From positions 175,674-239,673 of the forward strand of contig JANRBR010000039.1 in assembly GCA_030727405.1 (NCBI GenBank): a stretch of 64,000 nt of DNA, given 5' to 3'. The position numbers were made by a program, and so were the translations under genes. This document shows positions 18,819 through 32,178 of this stretch, piece after piece; position 1 is the first letter of the stretch; every line of letters begins with the position of its first letter. The notes below the pieces were generated by a model. That model had not been told where the DNA came from. It ran no database searches and saw only the letters and a list, made by a program, of their open reading frames with translations. Source of the stretch: Crocinitomicaceae bacterium (lineage in GTDB: Bacteria; Bacteroidota; Bacteroidia; Flavobacteriales_D; Crocinitomicaceae).

Positions 18819-21800
18819 GTGTCTAAACCATTATACTACCATTCACGATTTAAAAAAATAAAGGCGGTTTACATCGCATTATTTCTATTGTTATGGACTG
18901 GAAATGCGAGCGCTCAAAATGGTTTCAACTTACCTTTCCCTATTTTTAACCCGATGAATCCTTATCAAAACTTACCACAAAGTTTTGACCTAGGTGATCC
19001 GAGCTCCATGCAGCAGACCATCGTATTTGATCCTGAAACAGGTCAATACGTTTTCAAAGAAACTCTAGGTAAAAACACATTATTATACCGGAATCCATCT
19101 AAGATGAGCCTCGAGGACTACCTCGAATACAACGAAAAAAAATCGTTGAAAATGGACTGGCAAGAGATCATTGATGAACAAACGGCTGAAAACCGCACCT
19201 TCGAATTGCCCATTAAAATTGGAAGCAAAGCCTTTACAAGTATTTTTGGTTCGGATGAAATTAAAATCATTCCTGGAGGTAACCTAGAATTATCTCTGGG
19301 CTTAAATCATTCGCGGGTGGACAATCCATTGTTGCCGATGAGGCAACGTAAAATCACGCGTTTTGACTTCAATCAAAACATCAATATGGACATTACTGGT
19401 CAAATTGGTACAAAGATGAAGTTGAACATGAAGTACAACACAGCAGCCAATTTTGATTTCGAGAACATTTCAAAAATTGAACACACAGGAAAAGAGGACG
19501 AAATCATACAAAAAATTGCATTGGGAAATGTGGCCTTGGATCTTCCAACCTCCCTGATTCAAGGATCACAGACCTTATTCGGTGTGAAAACACAATTAAA
19601 ATTTGGTCGTTCCACCTTTGATTTAATTGCGGCAGCATCTAAAGGTAAACGAACAGAAATCAACGTAACCGGTAAAGCTCAAATCCAAAAATTTGAAATA
19701 TCTGCTGATAACTACGAAGCGAATCGCCATTATTTCTTGAATCTATACCATCAGCAACATTACGATACGGCAATGTCAACTTTGCCTATGGTTAATTCAA
19801 CCGCATTTATTACAAGAATCGAGGTTTGGGTAACCAATCGAACAAGCAACACTGAAAACACACGTAACATTGTTGCTTTTTCGGATTTAGGGGAAGCTTT
19901 GGAAAGCAATTGTCAAGGTAATCCAGGTTCTTACAGCGGAGGTGAATTTCCAGATAACCAAGCAAATGGACTGTACGACTGGGCAGCAAATCAACCCATG
20001 ATTCGAGGATTTGTTAATTCGGTGACCGCTCTTTCCACTCAAGTCAATTCACCTGGACCCTTTGTTCAAGCCATTGATTTTGAAAAAGTGGAAAATGCAC
20101 GGAAATTAACAGATGCAGAGTTCACGTACAATTCACTTCTTGGATACATTTCCCTTAGTAATGCATTGAATAACGACGAAGTTTTAGCTGTAGCATACGA
20201 ATACACCTATCGAGGAGAAACCTTTCAAGTGGGTGAATTCTCTACAGATGGTGCCAGTGGACAAGAAGCGCTAGTGCTCAAATTAATCAAGCCAACCATC
20301 ACCAATCCAAAAAATAAAATTTGGGATTTGATGATGAAAAACGTTTATTCCATCGGAGCTTATCAAGTGGATCAACTTGGATTCAAAATCGATGTGTATT
20401 ACAACAACAAAGAAACCTCCGTTCTACAACCATTTATGCCCTTTGATGGCATCGATAAAAAACAAATCGTGACCTTGTTGGACATGGATAAAATCAACCA
20501 AAACAACCAACCGTTTTCAGATGGTGTTTTTGATTTCGCACCGTTTAACATCGTTGGAAACAAAATTGATAATGGAGGAACGATCAACAAGAAAAATGGC
20601 CGTATTTTCTTCAGTACAGTTGAACCATTTGGAAAAACACTAGCTGAAAAACTTACCGATGCAGGTGTGCCTCAAGTGAACGTTGGTAAAATTGCCTTCA
20701 CCGAATTATACGATTCTACCAAAACTGCGGCTCAACAAATCCCAAGTAAAAATCGCTTTGTGTTCAAAGGAGAGTTCCAATCTTCGATTAGTTCGGAAAT
20801 TCCATTGAACGTCATGAACATTCCTCAAGGAGCTGTCGTGGTGACGGCTGGTGGCATACGCCTGATTGAAGGAACAGATTACACCGTTGATTATGCATTT
20901 AGCCGCGTGAAGATCCTCAATACCGGAATTCTTGAATCCAATACCCCAATCAAAATTACCATTGAAAGTAATTCTGTCTTTGGTTTCCAAGCTAGATCTA
21001 TGATGGGTGGTCACTATCAATACCGTTTCAACGAGAACATTAAATTAGGAGCTACCTACATTCGAATGATGGAGCGTCCCGTTACGCAAAAAGTTGATTT
21101 TGGAAACGAACCATTCAAAAACAGCATGTTAGGCTTGGATTTTTCCCTCCGAACAAATGTACCGTTCCTCACAAAATTAGTTGATCTATTGCCGGTGATC
21201 TCCACCAATCAAATGTCCACTTTATCCCTTACTGGTGAATACGCTCACCTCATCCCTGGTCAACCAAAAGCGATCAATAAATCAGGAACATCCTACATTG
21301 ATGATTTCGAAGCGAGTCAGAGTGCCATCGATTTACGTCAGTTCTCGGCGTGGAGAATGGCATCCATACCACAAGGTCAACCTGACTTATTTCCAGAAGC
21401 AAGTTCGAAAAACCTGAGTTCCGGTTTTAAAAGGGCGAAAGCAGTTTGGTACACCATTGACCCTGTTTTCTATCAAAGCAATTCCCTCACTCCTCAACAC
21501 ATCAAGCAGAATCCAACAATGCTTACGGATAGTCGTCAACGTTTGGTAAATCAAATTGACATCTTCCCGAATCTGCAGCAACAGTATGGATCGATATCCA
21601 ATATTCCTATATTGGATCTTGCATTCTATCCTACGGAGCGTGGAATGTACAATTATGACACAACGAATACCGTAGACTCATTGGGGCGATTTGTGAATCC
21701 AGAAAATCGATGGGGTGGCATCATGCGCGGATTAACAACCAACGATTTTGAAGTAGCAAACATTGAATTCATCCAGTTTTGGGTTTTAGATCCATTCAAT

Positions 21801-24800
21801 GAAGATGCTGAAAATGAAAATCCCAATACCTTTCACACAGGTGGGGATTTGTATTTTAACTTAGGAAACATATCTGAAGATGTACTTCCTGATTCTCGTA
21901 AAAGTTATGAGAATGGACTTCCTGCTGACTTAGGTGTCCCGTTAACGGATAACATGGATACAACGGCTTGGTCGCGCATTTCGACACAGCAAATTGTTGT
22001 CAATGCATTTGATAACGATCCTGCATCTAGAAAAAATCAGGATGTCGGCATCGACGGTTGGAAAAACAACCAAGAACAAACGTCCTATCAATCTTATGTT
22101 AACTGGGTTCAAAATAATCCGACTCTCAATGCAAGTACCAAAGCTCGCATGATTTCCGATCCATCGAATGATGATTACACCTATTACTTAGATGATAATT
22201 ACGACAATGCGCAGTTAGATATTTTAGGACGTTACAAACGTTACAACGGGATGGAAGGGAATTCACCGACAACAGAAATGTCTGATACAGCAAATGTAGC
22301 AGGATATCCAACTCAGGCAAGTAACCAACCGGATAACGAGGACATAAATCAAGACAACAACTTGGCAGAAAGTGAAAGTTACTTTCAATACCGAGTAAGC
22401 ATGCGTCCAAATGATTTACAACAAGTTGGTAATAATTTCATCACCAACAAACAAGTGTATCAAAACGGTACGAAAACAGAAACCTGGTACCAGTTTAAAG
22501 TACCTTTAAATGCTTTTGAAAAGCGCATTAATGGGATCCAAGATTTTCGATCCATTCGATTTATGCGGATGTTTTTGAAAAACTTTGACGAGGAAGTGGT
22601 GCTTCGTTTTGCTCGTTTGGAATTGATCCGTGGTGAATGGCGTCGTTACACGCAAGATTTAACTCAACCAGGTTTAAGTGTTCAAACGGATCCTAACTTA
22701 ACCACCTTCAATATTGCCGCTTTGAACATCGAAGAAAATGGTCAGCGTCAGCCAATTAACTACGTTATTCCTCCTGGGATAACACGTGAAATCGATCCTT
22801 CCCAAGTGTACCAACGTCAAATGAATGAGCAATCTTTGGTGCTGGAAATATGCAACCTTCAGGATGGAGATGCGCGAGCGGCTTATCGAAATGTTCAATT
22901 TGATGTCCGCACATACAAAAAAATGAAAATGTTTGTTCACGCAGAGTCCGTTGTTCAAAATCAATTAAAAGACAATGAGCTGAGCATATTTGTCCGTTTA
23001 GGTACAGATTACGTTGAAAATTATTACGAATATGAACTTCCCATGAAGGTGACTGATTGGGGAACAAGTGACCCTGAATCCATTTGGGCAGCGGCGAACA
23101 ACATTGAAATCGTTTTTGATGATCTCTTAAATTTAAAAACAGAACGAAACAAAAAAGTGGAGCAAGGTGCTCCGGGAGTTTCTTATGTGAATGAATATGA
23201 AATTGCCGATCCTCAAAATGCACAACGCAAAATAAAAGTCAAGGGAAGTCCAAACTTACAAGGCATGCGAACCATTATGATTGGCGTTCGCAATCCATTA
23301 AAAACAGATCCGGATAACATTTGGCAGCCAGATGCTGGAGATGCAGAGTGCGTCAATGTTTGGGTGAACGAATTGCGATTAACCGATTTCGTTAGCGATG
23401 GTGGTGACGCTGCGATCGGACAAATGCAAGTACAATTAGCTGATTTCGCCAATATTTCAGCTTCAGGGAACTATTCTGGTATCAACTGGGGTAGTGTCGA
23501 TAGCCGCGTTCAAGATCGTCAACGTAATCAAAAAGTTGGTTTCGATATGAACACAACGGTCCAATTGGGACAGTTCTTTGGAAAACAAGCTCGTGTCTCA
23601 TTGCCATTCTTCTACGGATATTCTTTAGGAGTGATTACACCTGAATATGATCCGTTTAATCCTGACATCAAATTATCAAATTATGATTTAGCCACTCGTA
23701 AAGAACGAGCTAAACTTGGTCAAGACTTTACGGAACGTCGCTCTTTCAACTTTACCAATGTTCGCAAAGAAGCAAAAGCGGGAACCAAGCCTCAATTTTG
23801 GAACATTTCCAACTGGTCTGCTACATACGCCTTTGCTGAAAATTTAAAACGCGATTTCAATATTACTGCTGATCGTACAAAAACGTGGACAGGAGCATTA
23901 AATTACAACTACACGTTTTCAGGAAAAGCAATTGAGCCATTTAAAAAATGGGCGCCTGTTCAAAAATCTCCTTGGTTAAAATGGATCAAAGAATTTAATC
24001 TTTTCTTACTCCCGAAAAACATCACTTTCACGAATGACTATTCGCGCATATACAATGAAAGACAAGTAAGAAACATCATTGTTCCTAGCTACGAATTTGA
24101 ACCAATTTACTTGAAACGATTTGATTGGAATCGTAATTATCAAATTGGTTATGACCTTACCAAAAACCTCAAAACGACCTTCCGTGCAACGAATAAATCC
24201 ATCTTTGTTGAAGGAAATCACGGAGTAGATCGTGCAACGAATCCAGAAGGATACCGCGAGTTTATGGATACCATTCGTTCACAAATCAGCACCTTTGGTA
24301 GAACCATGGACTATTCTCACAACTATAGTGTGAGTTATAACATCCCATTGAATAAATTCCCATTAACAAATTGGATTACTTCCAATGTGAAGTACACCGG
24401 AACATTCAATTGGCAACGAGCACCACTTGGTCAAGCTCCATTTGGAAATACCATTCAGAACAACCGCACGGTAAACATGACGCTACAAGGAAATTTTGTT
24501 ACGCTTTATAACAAAATCCCTTATTTCAAGCGCGTACTTTCGGATGGAAAGGGCATGAAAGGAAATGTCAATTCCAAAGTTGGAAATGATGGCCGAGATG
24601 GAGGTGCAGGTGGGAAACCAAAAGCTGGAACAGTTAAATTGCCAGAATTTAAACCTGAGAAGCCAATTGAAGAAATGACGGCGAAAGAATTGAAACAATA
24701 CGAACGTCAGAAAAAACGCTTTGATCGCAAGCAAATTCGAATACAAGCCATAAAAGACAAAGAAAAAGTAAAGGTGAATCCGATCGGTGGATTCTTTGCA

Positions 24801-26174
24801 AGGTTGATTATGAGCGTTCGAAATGTATCCGGTACATATGCCTTAACAGATGGTACCATGTTGCCAGGATACAATCAAGAATCCAGTGTCCTTGGAATGA
24901 ATGGCACGAGTCTTGGAATGTCCGGTTTCGTCTTCGGAAAACAAGGATATGATCTACTTGGCAGATCCAACGGCTACAACGTAAGTACATTGGCGCGAGA
25001 CAATAATTGGTTGGTGCAAAATGAAAACTTAAACAAACAATTTACCACCACACACACCGCAAACCTTCAATTAAAGGCAACGCTTGAACCGATCAAGGAT
25101 TTAAATGTCAACCTAAATTTAAGCCGAAATTACAGTACGAATTCAGGTGAATTCTATCGATGGAATACGACCACCAATGCTTTTGAAAGTCAAAGCAAAT
25201 TCGAAACGAGTACACTGACTTATACTACGGTAACCTGGGGGTCCGCCTTCATTAAAGAAGGAAAAGACTTTTCCTCTTCTGTGTTCCAAAACATGTTGAA
25301 CAATCGCCAACAAGTATCTCAACTTTTAGGTGCACAAAACCCGAATTCGAGTTTGCTTCCGAATGGATACTACAGCGGTTACTCGGGGTCTCAACAAGAA
25401 GTTGTCATGGGAGCTTTCTTGTCGGCATATACCAATTCAACGATCGATTCGAAATCCATTTCTCCTCTTTCAAATTTACCATTACCAAACTGGACCATTA
25501 ACTACAATGGGCTTTCTAAATTTGCCTTTGCGAAGGATGTGGTAAAATCATTTAAACTGAATCATGGTTATACGTCCTCTGTTTCTGTAAACGGCATGCA
25601 AACCAATTTGAACGCAACAGTAGATGCAAATGGATACGCTACAGGTCAAGACATCAACAACAACTATATTGCTTCCATGCAAATTCAAAACATTACCATT
25701 ACGGAACGTTTCTCGCCGCTCATTGGAATGTTGGCAACTTGGAACATTTTAGGAAAAAACATCACCACCAACTTTCAATACAAAAAAGACCGTCAAACGA
25801 CCCTTTCTCTTAATAACAACCAAGTTACTGAAGTTCTAGGAAAAGAAATCGTTGTTGGAACCGTTATTAATATCCCGAAATTGAAATTACCTGTACGTAG
25901 TTTAAAACCAAGTGACTTATTGATCAACATAAATTTCTCTTTCCGTGATAATTCTACAGTGATACGAAAAGTAATTGAACAGACGAATCAAGCTACTGCG
26001 GGTCAAACTACCGTCAGTTTCAAACTCGATGCCAATTACAAACTTTCAGAGCATTTAAGTGCTATTTTCTATTACGAGCAATTCCTAAATACACCAAAGG
26101 TATTCATCAGTTATCCAACAGGAAACTTAAAAACAGGAATTACCTTGCGTTTTGACTTGAATGGATTGAAATAA
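18819..26174 (+). CDS. sprA: T9SS outer-membrane translocon protein SprA/Sov
   Basis: 2451-aa protein with GTG start and signal peptide, directly after ruvA as in many Bacteroidota; SprA-like length and motifs ('GTSYIDDFEASQSAIDLR'). Confidence 0.93.
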   Translation: MSKPLYYHSRFKKIKAVYIALFLLLWTGNASAQNGFNLPFPIFNPMNPYQNLPQSFDLGDPSSMQQTIVFDPETGQYVFKETLGKNTLLYRNPSKMSLEDYLEYNEKKSLKMDWQEIIDEQTAENRTFELPIKIGSKAFTSIFGSDEIKIIPGGNLELSLGLNHSRVDNPLLPMRQRKITRFDFNQNINMDITGQIGTKMKLNMKYNTAANFDFENISKIEHTGKEDEIIQKIALGNVALDLPTSLIQGSQTLFGVKTQLKFGRSTFDLIAAASKGKRTEINVTGKAQIQKFEISADNYEANRHYFLNLYHQQHYDTAMSTLPMVNSTAFITRIEVWVTNRTSNTENTRNIVAFSDLGEALESNCQGNPGSYSGGEFPDNQANGLYDWAANQPMIRGFVNSVTALSTQVNSPGPFVQAIDFEKVENARKLTDAEFTYNSLLGYISLSNALNNDEVLAVAYEYTYRGETFQVGEFSTDGASGQEALVLKLIKPTITNPKNKIWDLMMKNVYSIGAYQVDQLGFKIDVYYNNKETSVLQPFMPFDGIDKKQIVTLLDMDKINQNNQPFSDGVFDFAPFNIVGNKIDNGGTINKKNGRIFFSTVEPFGKTLAEKLTDAGVPQVNVGKIAFTELYDSTKTAAQQIPSKNRFVFKGEFQSSISSEIPLNVMNIPQGAVVVTAGGIRLIEGTDYTVDYAFSRVKILNTGILESNTPIKITIESNSVFGFQARSMMGGHYQYRFNENIKLGATYIRMMERPVTQKVDFGNEPFKNSMLGLDFSLRTNVPFLTKLVDLLPVISTNQMSTLSLTGEYAHLIPGQPKAINKSGTSYIDDFEASQSAIDLRQFSAWRMASIPQGQPDLFPEASSKNLSSGFKRAKAVWYTIDPVFYQSNSLTPQHIKQNPTMLTDSRQRLVNQIDIFPNLQQQYGSISNIPILDLAFYPTERGMYNYDTTNTVDSLGRFVNPENRWGGIMRGLTTNDFEVANIEFIQFWVLDPFNEDAENENPNTFHTGGDLYFNLGNISEDVLPDSRKSYENGLPADLGVPLTDNMDTTAWSRISTQQIVVNAFDNDPASRKNQDVGIDGWKNNQEQTSYQSYVNWVQNNPTLNASTKARMISDPSNDDYTYYLDDNYDNAQLDILGRYKRYNGMEGNSPTTEMSDTANVAGYPTQASNQPDNEDINQDNNLAESESYFQYRVSMRPNDLQQVGNNFITNKQVYQNGTKTETWYQFKVPLNAFEKRINGIQDFRSIRFMRMFLKNFDEEVVLRFARLELIRGEWRRYTQDLTQPGLSVQTDPNLTTFNIAALNIEENGQRQPINYVIPPGITREIDPSQVYQRQMNEQSLVLEICNLQDGDARAAYRNVQFDVRTYKKMKMFVHAESVVQNQLKDNELSIFVRLGTDYVENYYEYELPMKVTDWGTSDPESIWAAANNIEIVFDDLLNLKTERNKKVEQGAPGVSYVNEYEIADPQNAQRKIKVKGSPNLQGMRTIMIGVRNPLKTDPDNIWQPDAGDAECVNVWVNELRLTDFVSDGGDAAIGQMQVQLADFANISASGNYSGINWGSVDSRVQDRQRNQKVGFDMNTTVQLGQFFGKQARVSLPFFYGYSLGVITPEYDPFNPDIKLSNYDLATRKERAKLGQDFTERRSFNFTNVRKEAKAGTKPQFWNISNWSATYAFAENLKRDFNITADRTKTWTGALNYNYTFSGKAIEPFKKWAPVQKSPWLKWIKEFNLFLLPKNITFTNDYSRIYNERQVRNIIVPSYEFEPIYLKRFDWNRNYQIGYDLTKNLKTTFRATNKSIFVEGNHGVDRATNPEGYREFMDTIRSQISTFGRTMDYSHNYSVSYNIPLNKFPLTNWITSNVKYTGTFNWQRAPLGQAPFGNTIQNNRTVNMTLQGNFVTLYNKIPYFKRVLSDGKGMKGNVNSKVGNDGRDGGAGGKPKAGTVKLPEFKPEKPIEEMTAKELKQYERQKKRFDRKQIRIQAIKDKEKVKVNPIGGFFARLIMSVRNVSGTYALTDGTMLPGYNQESSVLGMNGTSLGMSGFVFGKQGYDLLGRSNGYNVSTLARDNNWLVQNENLNKQFTTTHTANLQLKATLEPIKDLNVNLNLSRNYSTNSGEFYRWNTTTNAFESQSKFETSTLTYTTVTWGSAFIKEGKDFSSSVFQNMLNNRQQVSQLLGAQNPNSSLLPNGYYSGYSGSQQEVVMGAFLSAYTNSTIDSKSISPLSNLPLPNWTINYNGLSKFAFAKDVVKSFKLNHGYTSSVSVNGMQTNLNATVDANGYATGQDINNNYIASMQIQNITITERFSPLIGMLATWNILGKNITTNFQYKKDRQTTLSLNNNQVTEVLGKEIVVGTVINIPKLKLPVRSLKPSDLLININFSFRDNSTVIRKVIEQTNQATAGQTTVSFKLDANYKLSEHLSAIFYYEQFLNTPKVFISYPTGNLKTGITLRFDLNGLK

Positions 26175-26623: not shown

Positions 26624-26662
26624 TGTGCAAGTTTCTCTTCATCTTGACATCTAATTAAAACT

Positions 26663-27232
26663 GTGTCCAAGGAAATTGATATCACCGCCCTCCAAAGTGG
26701 AAACATACAAGCTTTCGAGCAACTCGTAAGCCTTTTTGAAAAAAAGGTCCTCAACATGTGTTGGCACCTTTTACACAACCAAGAGGAAGCAGAAGATGCC
26801 ACGCAAGATGTCTTTATTGCCATTTATCAATCAAAACACTTGTTTAAAGGAGAGTCGCAACTATCCACATGGATTCACCGCATCACCTTGAACAAATGCC
26901 TGGAATACATGCGACGTGCCAAACGAAAAAAACGGTTTGGAATAAAAGTTCCAATTGATGATTCCTTCTTAGGACGGGGGGATGAATCCCAGCTCAATCC
27001 AGAACAAGAACTAATGGAACGGGAACGATCCAAAGCATTTTATCTGGCAGTACAACAGCTATCTGAAAATCAAAGGGTTGCATATTCACTACATCACTTT
27101 GAGGATTTGAGTTATAAAGAAATCAGTGAAAGCATGAACCTATCCCTTTCGGCCATAGAATCGCTGATCTTTCGTGCAAAACAACACTTATTAAAACAAC
27201 TAAAAGACCCCATTCTACAAAATTGGATTTGA
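26663..27232 (+). CDS. ECF-type RNA polymerase sigma factor
   Basis: Sigma region 2 ('HNQEEAEDATQDVFIAIYQSKHLFKGESQLSTWIHRITLNKCLEYMRR') and region 4 ('LSYKEISESMNLSLSAIESLIFRAKQHLLKQL'); GTG start. Confidence 0.9.
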   Translation: MSKEIDITALQSGNIQAFEQLVSLFEKKVLNMCWHLLHNQEEAEDATQDVFIAIYQSKHLFKGESQLSTWIHRITLNKCLEYMRRAKRKKRFGIKVPIDDSFLGRGDESQLNPEQELMERERSKAFYLAVQQLSENQRVAYSLHHFEDLSYKEISESMNLSLSAIESLIFRAKQHLLKQLKDPILQNWI

Positions 27233-27279
27233 TACACAAGGATTACAACACATTAACATCTAAGTAATTAGAAAAGAAC

Positions 27280-27516
27280 ATGAAAAACAAACGAACGATT
27301 CAACCATTAGAAGTCAGCACTTCACTTCATGATAAACTCATGAAAAGTCCGGTTTATGCTCAAAAAATGAAATCGCGCACACTGACCGTTAGTATCATTA
27401 CAACACTTTTGATTCTAATCAACCTATTTTATTATATGTCAAACCAAGAAAATTTAGCTGAAAATCAAATTCTTGAGACGCAATATGCTAATTTTGGTTC
27501 CGACCTTTCCATCTAA
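27280..27516 (+). CDS. Small single-TM protein, candidate CnrY-like anti-sigma factor
   Basis: 78 aa: about 33-aa cytosolic N-terminus, one TM (TLTVSIITTLLILINLFYYM), short tail; lies between the sigma gene and the periplasmic sensor-like gene. Confidence 0.5.
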   Translation: MKNKRTIQPLEVSTSLHDKLMKSPVYAQKMKSRTLTVSIITTLLILINLFYYMSNQENLAENQILETQYANFGSDLSI

Positions 27517-27526
27517 AACTGTAAAA

Positions 27527-27964
27527 ATGAAAGCAAATCGCCTCCTAGTTCTTTGCATGGGAATATTGATTGTCATCAATGTCTTCCTTTTATTTGAGCG
27601 AAATAAACCGGAGCACGGTAATCCACCTCATCACCCAAAATTAAGCGTCGCTCTGGACATGAAAGGATTGGACGCAAAATGGGTCGACCGTGAATTTCAA
27701 CGCCACATTAAGGAAAAAGGCCGCTTTTTAGAACAACAAAAGACCTGGCGCATGAAACTCTTGTTAGATCGATCAAAAACAAAAGAAAATCAAGCTATTT
27801 TTGAAAAAATCAGTCGCCTTCAATTTCAAATTGACTCATGCACATTTGATCATTTCATGCGGGTAAAATCCAAATGTTCGAAGAAACAGGAGATTAAATT
27901 AAACAGCTTGGTGCGTCGCATGATACAGCGAGCAGGCAAACCTGGTCCACAAGGAAGACCATGA
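27527..27964 (+). CDS. Periplasmic helical protein of the CnrX/Spy/CpxP-like type (putative metal sensor)
   Basis: N-terminal TM anchor, His-rich linker (EHGNPPHHPK), helical region ending 'CTFDHFMRVKSKCSKKQEIKLNSLVRRM', similar to Bacteroidota periplasmic heavy-metal sensors; ATG 27527 preferred over 27473. Confidence 0.6.
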   Translation: MKANRLLVLCMGILIVINVFLLFERNKPEHGNPPHHPKLSVALDMKGLDAKWVDREFQRHIKEKGRFLEQQKTWRMKLLLDRSKTKENQAIFEKISRLQFQIDSCTFDHFMRVKSKCSKKQEIKLNSLVRRMIQRAGKPGPQGRP

Positions 27965-28611
27965 AACAATTTTTTATTTTCATTATCTTTTTGGTGCTTT
28001 TCCAACAGGCTCATACGCAATTGAATGTGTCTGTCTATTGGGGTAAAGATCAAATAGAGCTAGAAAAATATTACAAGCTTGGAAAGGATAGTTTGATCTT
28101 TCATGAATTGAAATTCTATCTTTCCGACTTTCAATTTAAACAAGAATCAAGGAAACATTTACAAGTGGGACCGAAACTTCTTGACCTTGAAGACACCAAT
28201 TCTCTTCATTTATTTTCAGGTTTTCCTGTTGAAGAATACCAATCCATCCGCTTCCATTTTGGACTAGATAGTTCGTATCACGTGTCTGAAATTGTCGATG
28301 GACCTTTGAATCCCATGAATGGCATGTATTGGGCATGGAATTCTGGTTACATTCAATTCAAATGTACAGGAACCTCATCATTGATTCCCTTACTTGACAA
28401 AACCTTTGAATTCCATTTAGGTGGATACCGTGAGCCGTTTGAAACGGTCGAATCCATTCAACTTCCAATCCTTGGAAACAAGCTCATTTTGGACATCAAA
28501 CCATTTTTTGAGCAAACGGTCGATTTACCATTGATACAACGTGTGATGATTCCGGGAAAAATGGCACAATCTTATTGTCGGAATCTTTCTAAATCCTTTC
28601 GTTCAGAATGA
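27961..28611 (+). CDS. MbnP-family protein (copper-protein partner of MbnH)
   Basis: Signal peptide; 'LNVSVYWGKDQIELEKYYKLGKDSLIFHELKFYLSDF' and 'NPMNGMYWAWNSGYIQFKCTG', typical MbnP-like motifs; ATGA overlap with the next gene. Confidence 0.8.
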   Translation: MKQFFIFIIFLVLFQQAHTQLNVSVYWGKDQIELEKYYKLGKDSLIFHELKFYLSDFQFKQESRKHLQVGPKLLDLEDTNSLHLFSGFPVEEYQSIRFHFGLDSSYHVSEIVDGPLNPMNGMYWAWNSGYIQFKCTGTSSLIPLLDKTFEFHLGGYREPFETVESIQLPILGNKLILDIKPFFEQTVDLPLIQRVMIPGKMAQSYCRNLSKSFRSE

Positions 28612-29651
28612 AACGAATTGCAGTGATTTTCTGGGGCATGATCGCTGCTCTAATTTTCTTCTCTGTGATGAAGGATGAAACACCCTTTTATGTTCCCGCG
28701 AAGTGGCCAAAACCCTACTATGACTTCTCACAAAATCCTCTTTCAAAGGAAAAATTTGAATTGGGACGCACCTTGTTTTACGATCCAGATCTTTCCAGAG
28801 ATAGTACCATTTCATGTGCAAACTGTCACTTACAATATTCTGGGTTTACACACATTGATCACTCCTTAAGTCATGGCATTGATGGTAAAATCGGAACACG
28901 AAATACACCCGTACTAATTAATATGGCTTGGCAACAATTTTTTCATTGGGATGGTGGCGTGAGTTCCTTAAATAAACAAGCGATTAATCCACTGACTCAT
29001 GCCAAGGAAATGGACAATCGACTAGACGAAGTACTTCGAAGATTAAACCAGTCATCTTTTTACCGAAGTCGTTTTTACCGTGCTTTTGGCGACAGTGTGA
29101 TTGAAACAGCATCTTTATTGAAAGCACTTGCAAGCTTCACGGTTTCCCTCGTTTCTGCAAATTCAAAATATGACCTAGTCAAACGAGGTGAATCGAGCTT
29201 TACAAATCAAGAGAAATCTGGTTATCAACTTTTCAAAAAGTACTGTGCTTCGTGCCATCAAGAACCCTTATTCATGAAAAATGACTTTAAATCCAATGGC
29301 ATTGCACTTGACCCCACACTTCATGATCTTGGACGAATGGGCATCACCAACCGAAAGGAAGATTCTCTACTGTTTAAAATTCCAACGCTACGCAATGTGG
29401 AGTTTAGCTTTCCTTACATGCACGATGGTCGATACAAAAACTTGAAAGAAGTACTGAATCACTATGCGGAAATGCATGAGCATCAACCTTACTTTAGCAA
29501 GGAACTTAAAAAGCTAAATCGTCCGCTATCCTCCAATGAACAAAAAGACCTCATTGCCTTTTTAAAAACATTGAGTGATCCTGAATTTTTATTCAATCCT
29601 TCCTTTAAATACCCGAAAAATGAGCGCAACGCAAGTTTTCAAAAGAATTAA
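28608..29651 (+). CDS. Diheme cytochrome c peroxidase / MbnH-MauG family protein
   Basis: Two CxxCH motifs (CANCH, CASCH), 'IGTRNTPVLINMAWQQFFHWDGG', 'KIPTLRNVEFSFPYMHDGRYKNLKEVLNHY'. Confidence 0.9.
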   Translation: MKRIAVIFWGMIAALIFFSVMKDETPFYVPAKWPKPYYDFSQNPLSKEKFELGRTLFYDPDLSRDSTISCANCHLQYSGFTHIDHSLSHGIDGKIGTRNTPVLINMAWQQFFHWDGGVSSLNKQAINPLTHAKEMDNRLDEVLRRLNQSSFYRSRFYRAFGDSVIETASLLKALASFTVSLVSANSKYDLVKRGESSFTNQEKSGYQLFKKYCASCHQEPLFMKNDFKSNGIALDPTLHDLGRMGITNRKEDSLLFKIPTLRNVEFSFPYMHDGRYKNLKEVLNHYAEMHEHQPYFSKELKKLNRPLSSNEQKDLIAFLKTLSDPEFLFNPSFKYPKNERNASFQKN

Positions 29652-29678
29652 CCTTTAACTTTACTAAAGCAGAACTAT

Positions 29679-31037
29679 ATGAAAAAACCGAACCTTCTAT
29701 TCTTGCTTATTGTTTGCGGTCAGCAAGCAATGGCACAATTAAATCCTGCGATTGAACATTGGATGATCAATTCGACAGGTATAACGGGTAGACATTATAT
29801 TCAAGGGAATTCCACGCCGATCAATGAAACAACCTTGGCGAATGTCCAAACAGTTCAGTATTCAAACAATTGGGTATATGTCACCACAACGGGAGTTCCA
29901 TCCTACATTACAGGACCTTTTATGGATGGCAATCCATCCTTGGCAACCAATCAAAATGCCATCTTTAAAATGCCACTTAATCCAACCCAAAATACAGGAA
30001 CGTTAACAAATACCACGGGTGGAAATATTGGGATTTTCATCAATGGAGTCGCCTTGTTTGACTACCGAGATGGTGTGGCATGGAATTCAACATCAAATAC
30101 CTTGTGTGGCGGCTTACCCGGAATGTCACCTTGCCCGGGTGGACCGGGTGCATCCTTTTCTTGGAATCGAGATGCCATTCCAGCAGAAAAAATGGGATTC
30201 GATTGCTCGAAAGGTCATCCAGCAAACGGTAATTACCACCACCATCAAAATCCGAGCGCGTTTAAATTGGACTTAACAGTCATTTCGAATGTGTGTGATT
30301 TATATGACGCTGATGGACTTTACGTCATTGATTCAACGGTTCATTCTCCTTTAATTGGTTATGCGTATGATGGCTTTCCGATTTACGGAGCATATGGGTA
30401 TAAAAACACGGATGGAACGGGTGGAATCACACGCGTGAAATCGAGTTACCAGTTGAGAAACATCAGCACAAGAGTGGTTTGGGCAGACGGAACAGATGTT
30501 CCTGATGGTCCAATTGTCAGTACAACCTATCCCCTAGGTTATTTTCGGGAAGACTATGAATTTATCAATCATGCCCAATCAGACTACCTAGATGTTCATA
30601 ATGGACGGTTTTGCGTTACTCCAGAATATCCAAATGGGATCTATTGTTATTTCGCGACTGTGAATGAGGAATGGAATTCAGCATATCCTTATGTGGTTGG
30701 ACCAACATTTTACGGTGTGAAAACAGCATCCAAAGTGACTACTATCACTGAAACAGTCACAACATACACATCATCTACTGGAATTTCTGAATTAACTGAT
30801 AATCAGTGGTCAGCATATCCAAATCCAAGTAATGAGATCATTATGGTGCAAGTGAATGATTTGACCAATCAAACCTACGAGGTTGAATTATACGATGCAT
30901 TGGGGAAACTAATCCAAACTCAACCAATTGTTCAAGGAAGTACAATCGCCTATTTCAACGCAGATACACTATACAAAGGTTTGTATTACGTGAAAGTGAA
31001 AGGTCAAAACGGTTCGAAAAAAATTGTGATACAATAA
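29679..31037 (+). CDS. YHYH-domain protein with T9SS type A sorting domain
   Basis: Signal peptide; 'HPANGNYHHHQNPSAF', 'SPLIGYAYDGFPIYGAYGY'; C-terminus 'WSAYPNPSNEIIMVQV...YKGLYYVKVKGQNGSKKIVIQ'. Confidence 0.88.
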   Translation: MKKPNLLFLLIVCGQQAMAQLNPAIEHWMINSTGITGRHYIQGNSTPINETTLANVQTVQYSNNWVYVTTTGVPSYITGPFMDGNPSLATNQNAIFKMPLNPTQNTGTLTNTTGGNIGIFINGVALFDYRDGVAWNSTSNTLCGGLPGMSPCPGGPGASFSWNRDAIPAEKMGFDCSKGHPANGNYHHHQNPSAFKLDLTVISNVCDLYDADGLYVIDSTVHSPLIGYAYDGFPIYGAYGYKNTDGTGGITRVKSSYQLRNISTRVVWADGTDVPDGPIVSTTYPLGYFREDYEFINHAQSDYLDVHNGRFCVTPEYPNGIYCYFATVNEEWNSAYPYVVGPTFYGVKTASKVTTITETVTTYTSSTGISELTDNQWSAYPNPSNEIIMVQVNDLTNQTYEVELYDALGKLIQTQPIVQGSTIAYFNADTLYKGLYYVKVKGQNGSKKIVIQ

Positions 31038-31270: not shown

Positions 31271-31439
31271 GACAGGCTGCTTGGAGAGGCAGTTTCATTT
31301 TCTAGTTTGATAAGAGTTTAATAGTTTTTGTTGACGTCCCTCGGGAATATATATAAAAAGAGCCTGTCCTTATTATTTAAATCGTACCACTCAGACTTTA
31401 ATGTCTACTACTAGGGAAGGGCTGAAAAGCCCTTTTTTT
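31271..31439 (+). ncRNA. Candidate structured small RNA (6S-like is one possibility)
   Basis: Perfect 8-bp closing stem GACAGGCT (31271-31278)/AGCCTGTC (31361-31368), inner CCCTCGGG and AGAC/GTCT hairpin elements, ends in its own terminator; no supported ORF; separate from the 31061-31090 terminator. Confidence 0.45.
31419..31439 (+). terminator. Rho-independent terminator of the candidate RNA
   Basis: GGGCT-GAAA-AGCCC-TTTTTTT. Confidence 0.75.
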
Positions 31440-32178
31440 ATTGTATTTTATATAGTATTGGCCGACTTGGACTGGCATCATTCTGAAAAGCAGCCAGTTG
31501 AATCTCTAGAATATACGTGCCATCCAATACATCATTCGGGACATAGATTAATTCTGTAATCGTACGTTCAAAATTTGGATTATTGGGAACATTCCAAAAT
31601 GCATGGTGAAAGGCCAAGGCTCCTCCATCCTCTTCTCGGTCTACAGACGGCTGGTCAACCAAAAAATGCTTCACCCCATATTTATTCAATAAATCAACAA
31701 TTTCTATGTCAAAATAACATGGGTTTGTACCTGAATAATTTATGGATTTTTTGTCTGGTGCATTCGGCAAAGTTCGAATGAGCACTGCGTCACTGAAGTC
31801 CTTTTGTAAATAAGGTGCAATTTGAGCTGCTTGAACAAGCAAATCCCCATTTTCCATTTTTACCGGATCCACCGTTATTAACGTTGCACGATAAAAATAC
31901 TCCTTGAGCACATCATTGACAGCATACACCTCTTTGGTAATATGACCGCAACATTCCGTATGCGTACCATGTCCATGCGGGTTGAAATAAACATCGCGAA
32001 AGTTCACACTTCCACCCTCTTCAATGCTGCCAATAAATCCATTCGCTCGAACAGGTTCCATTCTGGGAGGATCAACATACCAAGCCCGAACATTTTCTGG
32101 ACTGGATTGAAGGGTCATTGAAAGATCAATAAGCTCACTTGTCTCAATAAATTCAGTAGTAGTTAGATACAAACGCAT
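31438..32178 (-). CDS. Cyclase family protein (kynurenine formamidase-like superfamily)
   Basis: 'FIETSELIDLSMTLQ', 'NFRDVYFNPHGHGTHTECCGHI' metal-binding HGTHTE motif, 'LVDQPSVDREEDGGALAFHHAFW'. Confidence 0.85.
   Translation of the reverse strand: MRLYLTTTEFIETSELIDLSMTLQSSPENVRAWYVDPPRMEPVRANGFIGSIEEGGSVNFRDVYFNPHGHGTHTECCGHITKEVYAVNDVLKEYFYRATLITVDPVKMENGDLLVQAAQIAPYLQKDFSDAVLIRTLPNAPDKKSINYSGTNPCYFDIEIVDLLNKYGVKHFLVDQPSVDREEDGGALAFHHAFWNVPNNPNFERTITELIYVPNDVLDGTYILEIQLAAFQNDASPSRPILYKIQ

Follow-up and report, generated by a model that had tools for sequence, protein, structure and literature searches.

A 64,000-nucleotide stretch of contig JANRBR010000039.1 (positions 175,674 to 239,673 of the forward strand; assembly GCA_030727405.1, Crocinitomicaceae bacterium), referred to here as the window, carries six adjoining open reading frames (ORFs) on its + strand between positions 26663 and 31037. 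The host is an aquatic Bacteroidota bacterium with a genome of 2.23 Mb. We propose, with moderate confidence, that the six genes form a self-activating operon. In it, a Cnr-like switch made of an extracytoplasmic function (ECF) sigma factor, a small transmembrane (TM) protein and a periplasmic sensor would drive the putative kynurenine-copper pair MbnP and MbnH and a YHYH protein bound for the cell surface through the type IX secretion system (T9SS). The ORF check gave the order sigma factor, TM protein, sensor, MbnP, MbnH and YHYH, and the genes and sites are placed as follows.

26627..26654, + strand: ECF-type promoter-like element, GCAAGTTT-N13-CATCTAA, from the comparison of upstream regions
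26663..27232, + strand: ECF sigma factor, proposed CnrH role; 189 aa, GTG start, Sigma70_r2/r4 domains
27280..27516, + strand: single-TM protein, candidate anti-sigma factor (CnrY role); 78 aa, position conserved
27527..27964, + strand: putative periplasmic helical sensor, membrane-anchored (CnrX role), from Foldseek and profile matches; 145 aa counted from ATG
27961..28611, + strand: MbnP-like protein with signal peptide and WxW motif MYWAWNSGY; 216 aa, PF20243 E 4.5e-30
28608..29651, + strand: MbnH/MauG-type di-heme enzyme with two CXXCH motifs; 347 aa, CCP_MauG E 2.7e-52
29679..31037, + strand: YHYH protein with a type A T9SS tail; 452 aa, PF14240 E 6.3e-60, Por_Secre_tail E 6.2e-12
31413..31438, + strand: terminator-like hairpin 3' of the operon, from a pattern scan; weak

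The sensor and MbnP genes overlap by 4 bp, as do the MbnP and MbnH genes, and the remaining gaps measure 47 bp (sigma factor to TM protein), 10 bp (TM protein to sensor) and 27 bp (MbnH to YHYH). The contiguity of six same-strand genes, their overlaps and their families are therefore as a preliminary description of this DNA had given them. A pattern scan for sigma-70-like promoters found no match on the + strand between the six genes and one match inside the YHYH gene. Hairpin-type sites numbered 6 in the region against 4.6 expected, which makes the hairpin downstream of the operon weak evidence for a terminator.

The grouping of the six genes exceeds chance by far. A search with the sensor detected it in 55 of the 148 genomes of the family, and sigma factor, sensor, MbnP, MbnH and YHYH were all present, in the same order, at 26 of 41 sensor-centred family loci (window included). 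Among the incomplete loci, some end at contig ends, L055, L064 and L067 are without MbnP and MbnH, and L070 and L071 are without YHYH. A survey centred on YHYH covered 49 loci from named genomes, counting only those with enough upstream sequence; MbnP and MbnH preceded YHYH in 42 of them, and the whole operon was found in 29. These loci come from metagenome-assembled genomes labelled Crocinitomicaceae, other Flavobacteriales, Sphingobacteriales, Chitinophagales, Saprospiraceae and others, labels that are possibly wrong in places. Both surveys show the trio of sigma factor, TM protein and sensor conserved beside MbnP, MbnH and YHYH in relatives, on which the preliminary description had staked its reading.

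Within the genus sample, the sensor was present in 27 of 58 genomes. According to the coordinate tables, nearly all of these sensors directly adjoin an MbnP gene on the same strand, the exception being G465, where it lies on the opposite strand. The YHYH protein was encoded by 26 of the 27 sensor-bearing genomes and by 10 of the 31 sensor-less ones (Fisher P = 3e-7). In five genomes that have no operon (G022, G052, G064, G448 and G452), the GNAT gene of the left flank and the cyclase gene of the right flank lie about 330 bp apart, which indicates that the block was gained or lost at this site as one unit. Its recurrence across the phylum and its gain or loss as a unit make it very probable that the six-gene block is one working machine, the sensed signal of which we infer. 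Pairwise sequence distances of sigma factor, TM protein and sensor correlate at 0.76-0.82, with shared ancestry uncontrolled in these values. Deviating layouts were also observed. At L071:5851-10835, a second mbnP-mbnH pair lies directly before the sigma factor gene, so that the trio has such pairs on both sides. MbnP is a 76-aa remnant at L045:8105-8335 and apparently split into two frames at L058:7349-7988; sigma factor, TM protein and sensor are intact at both loci.

The element upstream of the sigma factor gene is laid out like an ECF promoter. No second exact copy of it exists in the 2.23-Mb genome, which suggests that the sigma factor serves this operon alone. Of 68 non-redundant upstream regions, 15 contain the general form GCAWG-N16-YRTC, where shuffled sequences would give 0.25, and the element is nearly confined to this spacing; the regions had been thinned by a simple identity rule, which leaves some relatedness among a few of these 15. 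In distant families, the same element appears with CGTC or TGTC. This conserved motif is sequence evidence that the sigma factor may activate its own operon, and it lends substance to the self-regulation suggested in the preliminary description. A wider regulon was considered and rejected, as the sole other near-perfect copy (C30:51252, one mismatch) lies inside a coding sequence. The predicted transcription start falls on the start codon of the sigma factor gene or no more than about 3 nt from it, with 33-36 nt between GCA and start (window 26627-26665; L034, L037, L054, L105), and the mRNA would then be leaderless.

The AlphaFold model of the 145-aa sensor has a mean confidence (pLDDT) of 84. 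When this model was compared with all PDB structures by Foldseek, the 15 best matches were all CnrX or NccX, followed by CpxP and ZraP, with a probability of 0.99-1.00 for the top thirteen and TM-scores of 0.64-0.70 on the target. A CnrX-type fold is thereby supported for the predicted structure. In sequence, the profile of the sensor family matched NccX with E 0.008 over residues 1-139, the whole length including the TM part, and its best single sequence match was Spy (E 0.0015). The family also resembles the Spy-CpxP-ZraP helical hairpins in that 13 of 39 sensor homologues match PF13801 (Metal_resist). It differs from them in that the window sensor itself gave no match to a Pfam family and in that CnrX, not CpxP or ZraP, is the better match for its predicted fold. 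The His-rich linker reported for the 145-aa protein is present (EHGNPPHHP), and across the family His60 is invariant and Phe110, Cys117 and Gln121 are near-invariant. At four loci, the sensor gene is doubled or followed by a gene for a Spy-like secreted helical protein (L084:7508-8473, L089:8077-9284, L095:7357-8404, L096:7538-8488).

The best matches of the sigma factor are ECF sigma factors of the RpoE/AlgU type, with CnrH (4cxf_A) found at E 2e-8. The 78-aa protein consists of a short N-terminal part, a TM segment at residues ~35-53 and a short C-terminal tail. A short single-TM protein, mostly of 75-116 aa, lies between sigma factor and sensor at 91 of 93 loci, and its sequence is highly variable (median identity 19%). 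The copy in the window gave no meaningful family match and no match to an anti-sigma family. CnrY is a short TM anti-sigma factor of class II that wraps its sigma factor with two helices (PMC7406223), and by position and build the 78-aa protein is a candidate for this role.

As a whole, the trio is like CnrYXH of Cupriavidus metallidurans (PMC7689651), a soil bacterium resistant to metals whose switch responds to cobalt and nickel, in combining an ECF sigma factor, a small single-TM protein and a TM-anchored sensor of CnrX fold, all of near-equal sizes, and NccX aligns with the sensor family from end to end. It is unlike CnrYXH in gene order (H-Y-X against Y-X-H), in a sensor mostly without the metal ligand set and in the undetectable similarity to CnrY. 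Furthermore, Cnr controls an RND (resistance-nodulation-division) metal efflux pump, whereas the output here is MbnP, MbnH and YHYH.

In the mechanism that we favor, the 78-aa membrane protein would hold the ECF sigma factor at the inner membrane at rest, a state maintained together with the CnrX-fold sensor. Binding of a ligand by the periplasmic sensor domain would alter the 78-aa protein and free the sigma factor. This ligand would most likely be a metal ion, with copper as the most plausible one given that the output is MbnP and MbnH. The freed sigma factor would then direct RNA polymerase to the GCAAGTTT-N13-CATC promoter before the sigma factor gene, and the operon would be transcribed. 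A copper site would arise on MbnP through oxidation of a WxW tryptophan by MbnH, with kynurenine as the probable product, and the T9SS would carry the His-rich YHYH protein to the cell surface. The anti-sigma activity and the identity and sign of the signal are the steps that we infer.

Several observations weigh against this mechanism. The Foldseek E-values of the sensor are 0.09 or higher, as is expected for a small helical protein, although the ranking is uniform. Four of the five CnrX metal ligands, which we take to be H42, H46, E63, H119 and M123, are not conserved in the sensor when it is aligned to NccX (H42, H46, E63 and M123); H119 alone has a His counterpart, sensor H109, and this is Tyr in many relatives. 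The invariant His60 and the near-invariant Cys117 are also common in most sensors without a neighboring MbnP or YHYH, and therefore they do not point to copper and were rejected as copper-specific residues. A 66-row profile of the TM protein found no CnrY in the PDB, so that an identity with CnrY by sequence was rejected as well. Other families have the trio in front of Lcl_C or phosphatase proteins, and at some loci no recognised output follows. Finally, CorA, a known kynurenine-copper protein, is repressed and not induced by copper (PMC3912023). Because the CnrX ligands are mostly absent and His60 and Cys117 are not specific to MbnP-linked sensors, our claim is that the switch works like Cnr, not that it is a Cnr system, and the sensor is a putative metal sensor. 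Of the CnrYXH-like switch in the preliminary description, the sensor fold and the conserved architecture hold, as do the sensor matches to CnrX and NccX by fold and to Spy and NccX by profile; the ligand set and a match of the 78-aa protein to CnrY do not. The copper theme may fit the trio where it stands beside MbnP, MbnH and YHYH, as here, and is too narrow for the trio elsewhere, where it stands beside other secreted proteins.

The regulation of CorA also bears on the sign of the response. If low periplasmic metal freed the sigma factor, the operon would answer copper scarcity, with MbnP and YHYH as surface copper scavengers comparable to CorA and MopE. Low copper is the condition under which CorA and its MauG-like partner are produced, and CorA associates with the cell surface (PMC3912023); the T9SS tail of YHYH likewise predicts export. 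Such a system would need a reversal of sign relative to Cnr, which is activated by metal binding (PMC7689651), and the sequence gives no indication of the sign. We regard copper scarcity as a possible signal, if not a likely one.

A sensor that responds to the state of folding or export in the manner of Spy and CpxP, for example to unmodified MbnP or to jammed T9SS cargo, and not to metal, is in our view unlikely. CnrX and NccX outrank CpxP and ZraP in the fold match, His60 and Cys117 resemble ligands or a functional site, and a TM-anchored protein of CnrX size with a partner of CnrY size is unlike the Spy/CpxP arrangement. These points stand against the rank of Spy as the best single match of the sensor profile, the mostly missing CnrX ligands, the Spy-like genes after the sensor at L084 and L096, and the occurrence of the trio before other T9SS-tailed proteins that share no link to metals.

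For the output genes, our reading predicts a tryptophan-modifying pair. MbnP scored 105 bits against PF20243 (curated cut-off 27) and 33 bits against the NCBI equivalog TIGR04052 (cut-off 140), and it had no match in the PDB. MbnH scored 201 bits against TIGR04039 (E 1.9e-59, cut-off 363). Since both fall far below the equivalog cut-offs, MbnP and MbnH are, as judged from their sequences, distant relatives of the characterised pairs. The WxW motif was present in 64/64 sensor-linked MbnPs, with MbnH adjoining in 64/64, and all 91 di-heme enzymes carry two CXXCH haem motifs. Tyr in place of Met as the distal haem ligand is the MauG type, and a Tyr ligand together with WxW marks tryptophan-modifying pairs (MauG, BthA, MbnH). 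At the likely ligand position, the window MbnH carries Tyr instead of the Met of peroxidases, and this residue aligns with the BthA Tyr (6e1c); among the 91 enzymes, 73 show the Tyr pattern and none the Met pattern. The solved structures closest to MbnH by sequence are nonetheless peroxidases (E 1e-44), but with Tyr at this position in the window enzyme, no Met version among the 91 and the enzyme always paired with MbnP at sensor-linked loci, an ordinary cytochrome c peroxidase in an operon for peroxide-stress response is quite improbable. The window pair fits tryptophan modification by both marks, as the preliminary description had it. The kynurenine chemistry of MbnP and MbnH was reportedly described in a 2021 paper; kynurenine may be formed here too, and MbnP and YHYH may bind copper. 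That unrelated genes became adjacent by accident is practically untenable, since the trio and the MbnP-MbnH-YHYH block are each found apart in some genomes but recur together over several orders and are gained or lost as a unit, and the survey already contradicts it.

The pair is like methanotroph MbnP/MbnH (PMC3621798) in that a PF20243 protein with WxW adjoins a MauG-like di-heme enzyme, and unlike it in its distance from the TIGR04052 and TIGR04039 cut-offs, its junction with a sigma factor switch and the lack of methanobactin genes in the operon. It would also resemble CorA/CorB and MopE/SACCP (PMC3912023) as a small, surface-associated copper protein with kynurenine and a di-heme partner, whereas the regulation of those systems is copper repression. 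MbnP is not markedly similar to CorA or MopE (PMC3621798). YHYH scored above the cut-offs of both PF14240 and TIGR04183 and is the most conserved member of the block (median identity 65%), with an invariant His-rich motif, CSKGHPA-GNYHHHQ. Its model is of low confidence (pLDDT 64.5), and Ig-like domains of the type seen in export tails rank first among its Foldseek matches. The same genome encodes two further mbnP-mbnH pairs without the trio or YHYH (L074:7387-9203, at about 124.4 kb of G000 C39; L075:1314-3268, G000 C30), and each of the 58 sampled genus genomes has 1-4 copies of MbnP.

In a phylum sample of 297 genomes, the sensor profile matched 133, MbnP 79 and YHYH 36; a result on one such system would consequently extend to many. 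The trio of other families precedes secreted T9SS-tailed proteins with Lcl_C or phosphatase domains, or nothing recognised. T9SS-tailed Lcl_C proteins follow it at L084 and L090, and T9SS-tailed calcineurin-like phosphoesterases with features of purple acid phosphatases at L098 and L099, which may mean that the switch also serves other surface proteins. Class I anti-sigma factors are found near only 6% of Bacteroidetes ECF sigma factors, and other anti-sigma classes have been suggested (PMC7406223). The trio is a candidate for such a class in Bacteroidota, and with the usual class being rare it offers a concrete candidate for the control of many of these sigma factors. More tentatively, and with slightly more doubt than belief, we suggest that it represents a phylum-wide class of metal-type transmembrane switches that supplies the missing anti-sigma factors, one branch of which directly governs the post-translational assembly of kynurenine copper sites along with T9SS surface export. 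MbnP and MbnH, "mysterious partners" in PMC3621798, would gain a dedicated periplasmic sensor in organisms other than methanotrophs, and YHYH would be a frequent, surface-exported third partner. The combination is not described in the open-access literature that we searched, a scope that leaves out most subscription papers and does not prove novelty.

Two neighboring genes deserve mention. The convergent gene at 31438-32178 (- strand) encodes a PF04199 cyclase with weak similarity to arylformamidases (TIGR03035 E 3.6e-9, below cut-off), a curious neighbor for a possible tryptophan-to-kynurenine pair. It was rejected as a seventh part, as operon-less relatives retain it next to the GNAT gene and it has no evident signal peptide. 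The gene two before the operon (18819-26174) encodes SprA/Sov, the outer-membrane translocon of the T9SS (TIGR04189, 2331 bits), and the operon itself encodes a T9SS cargo.

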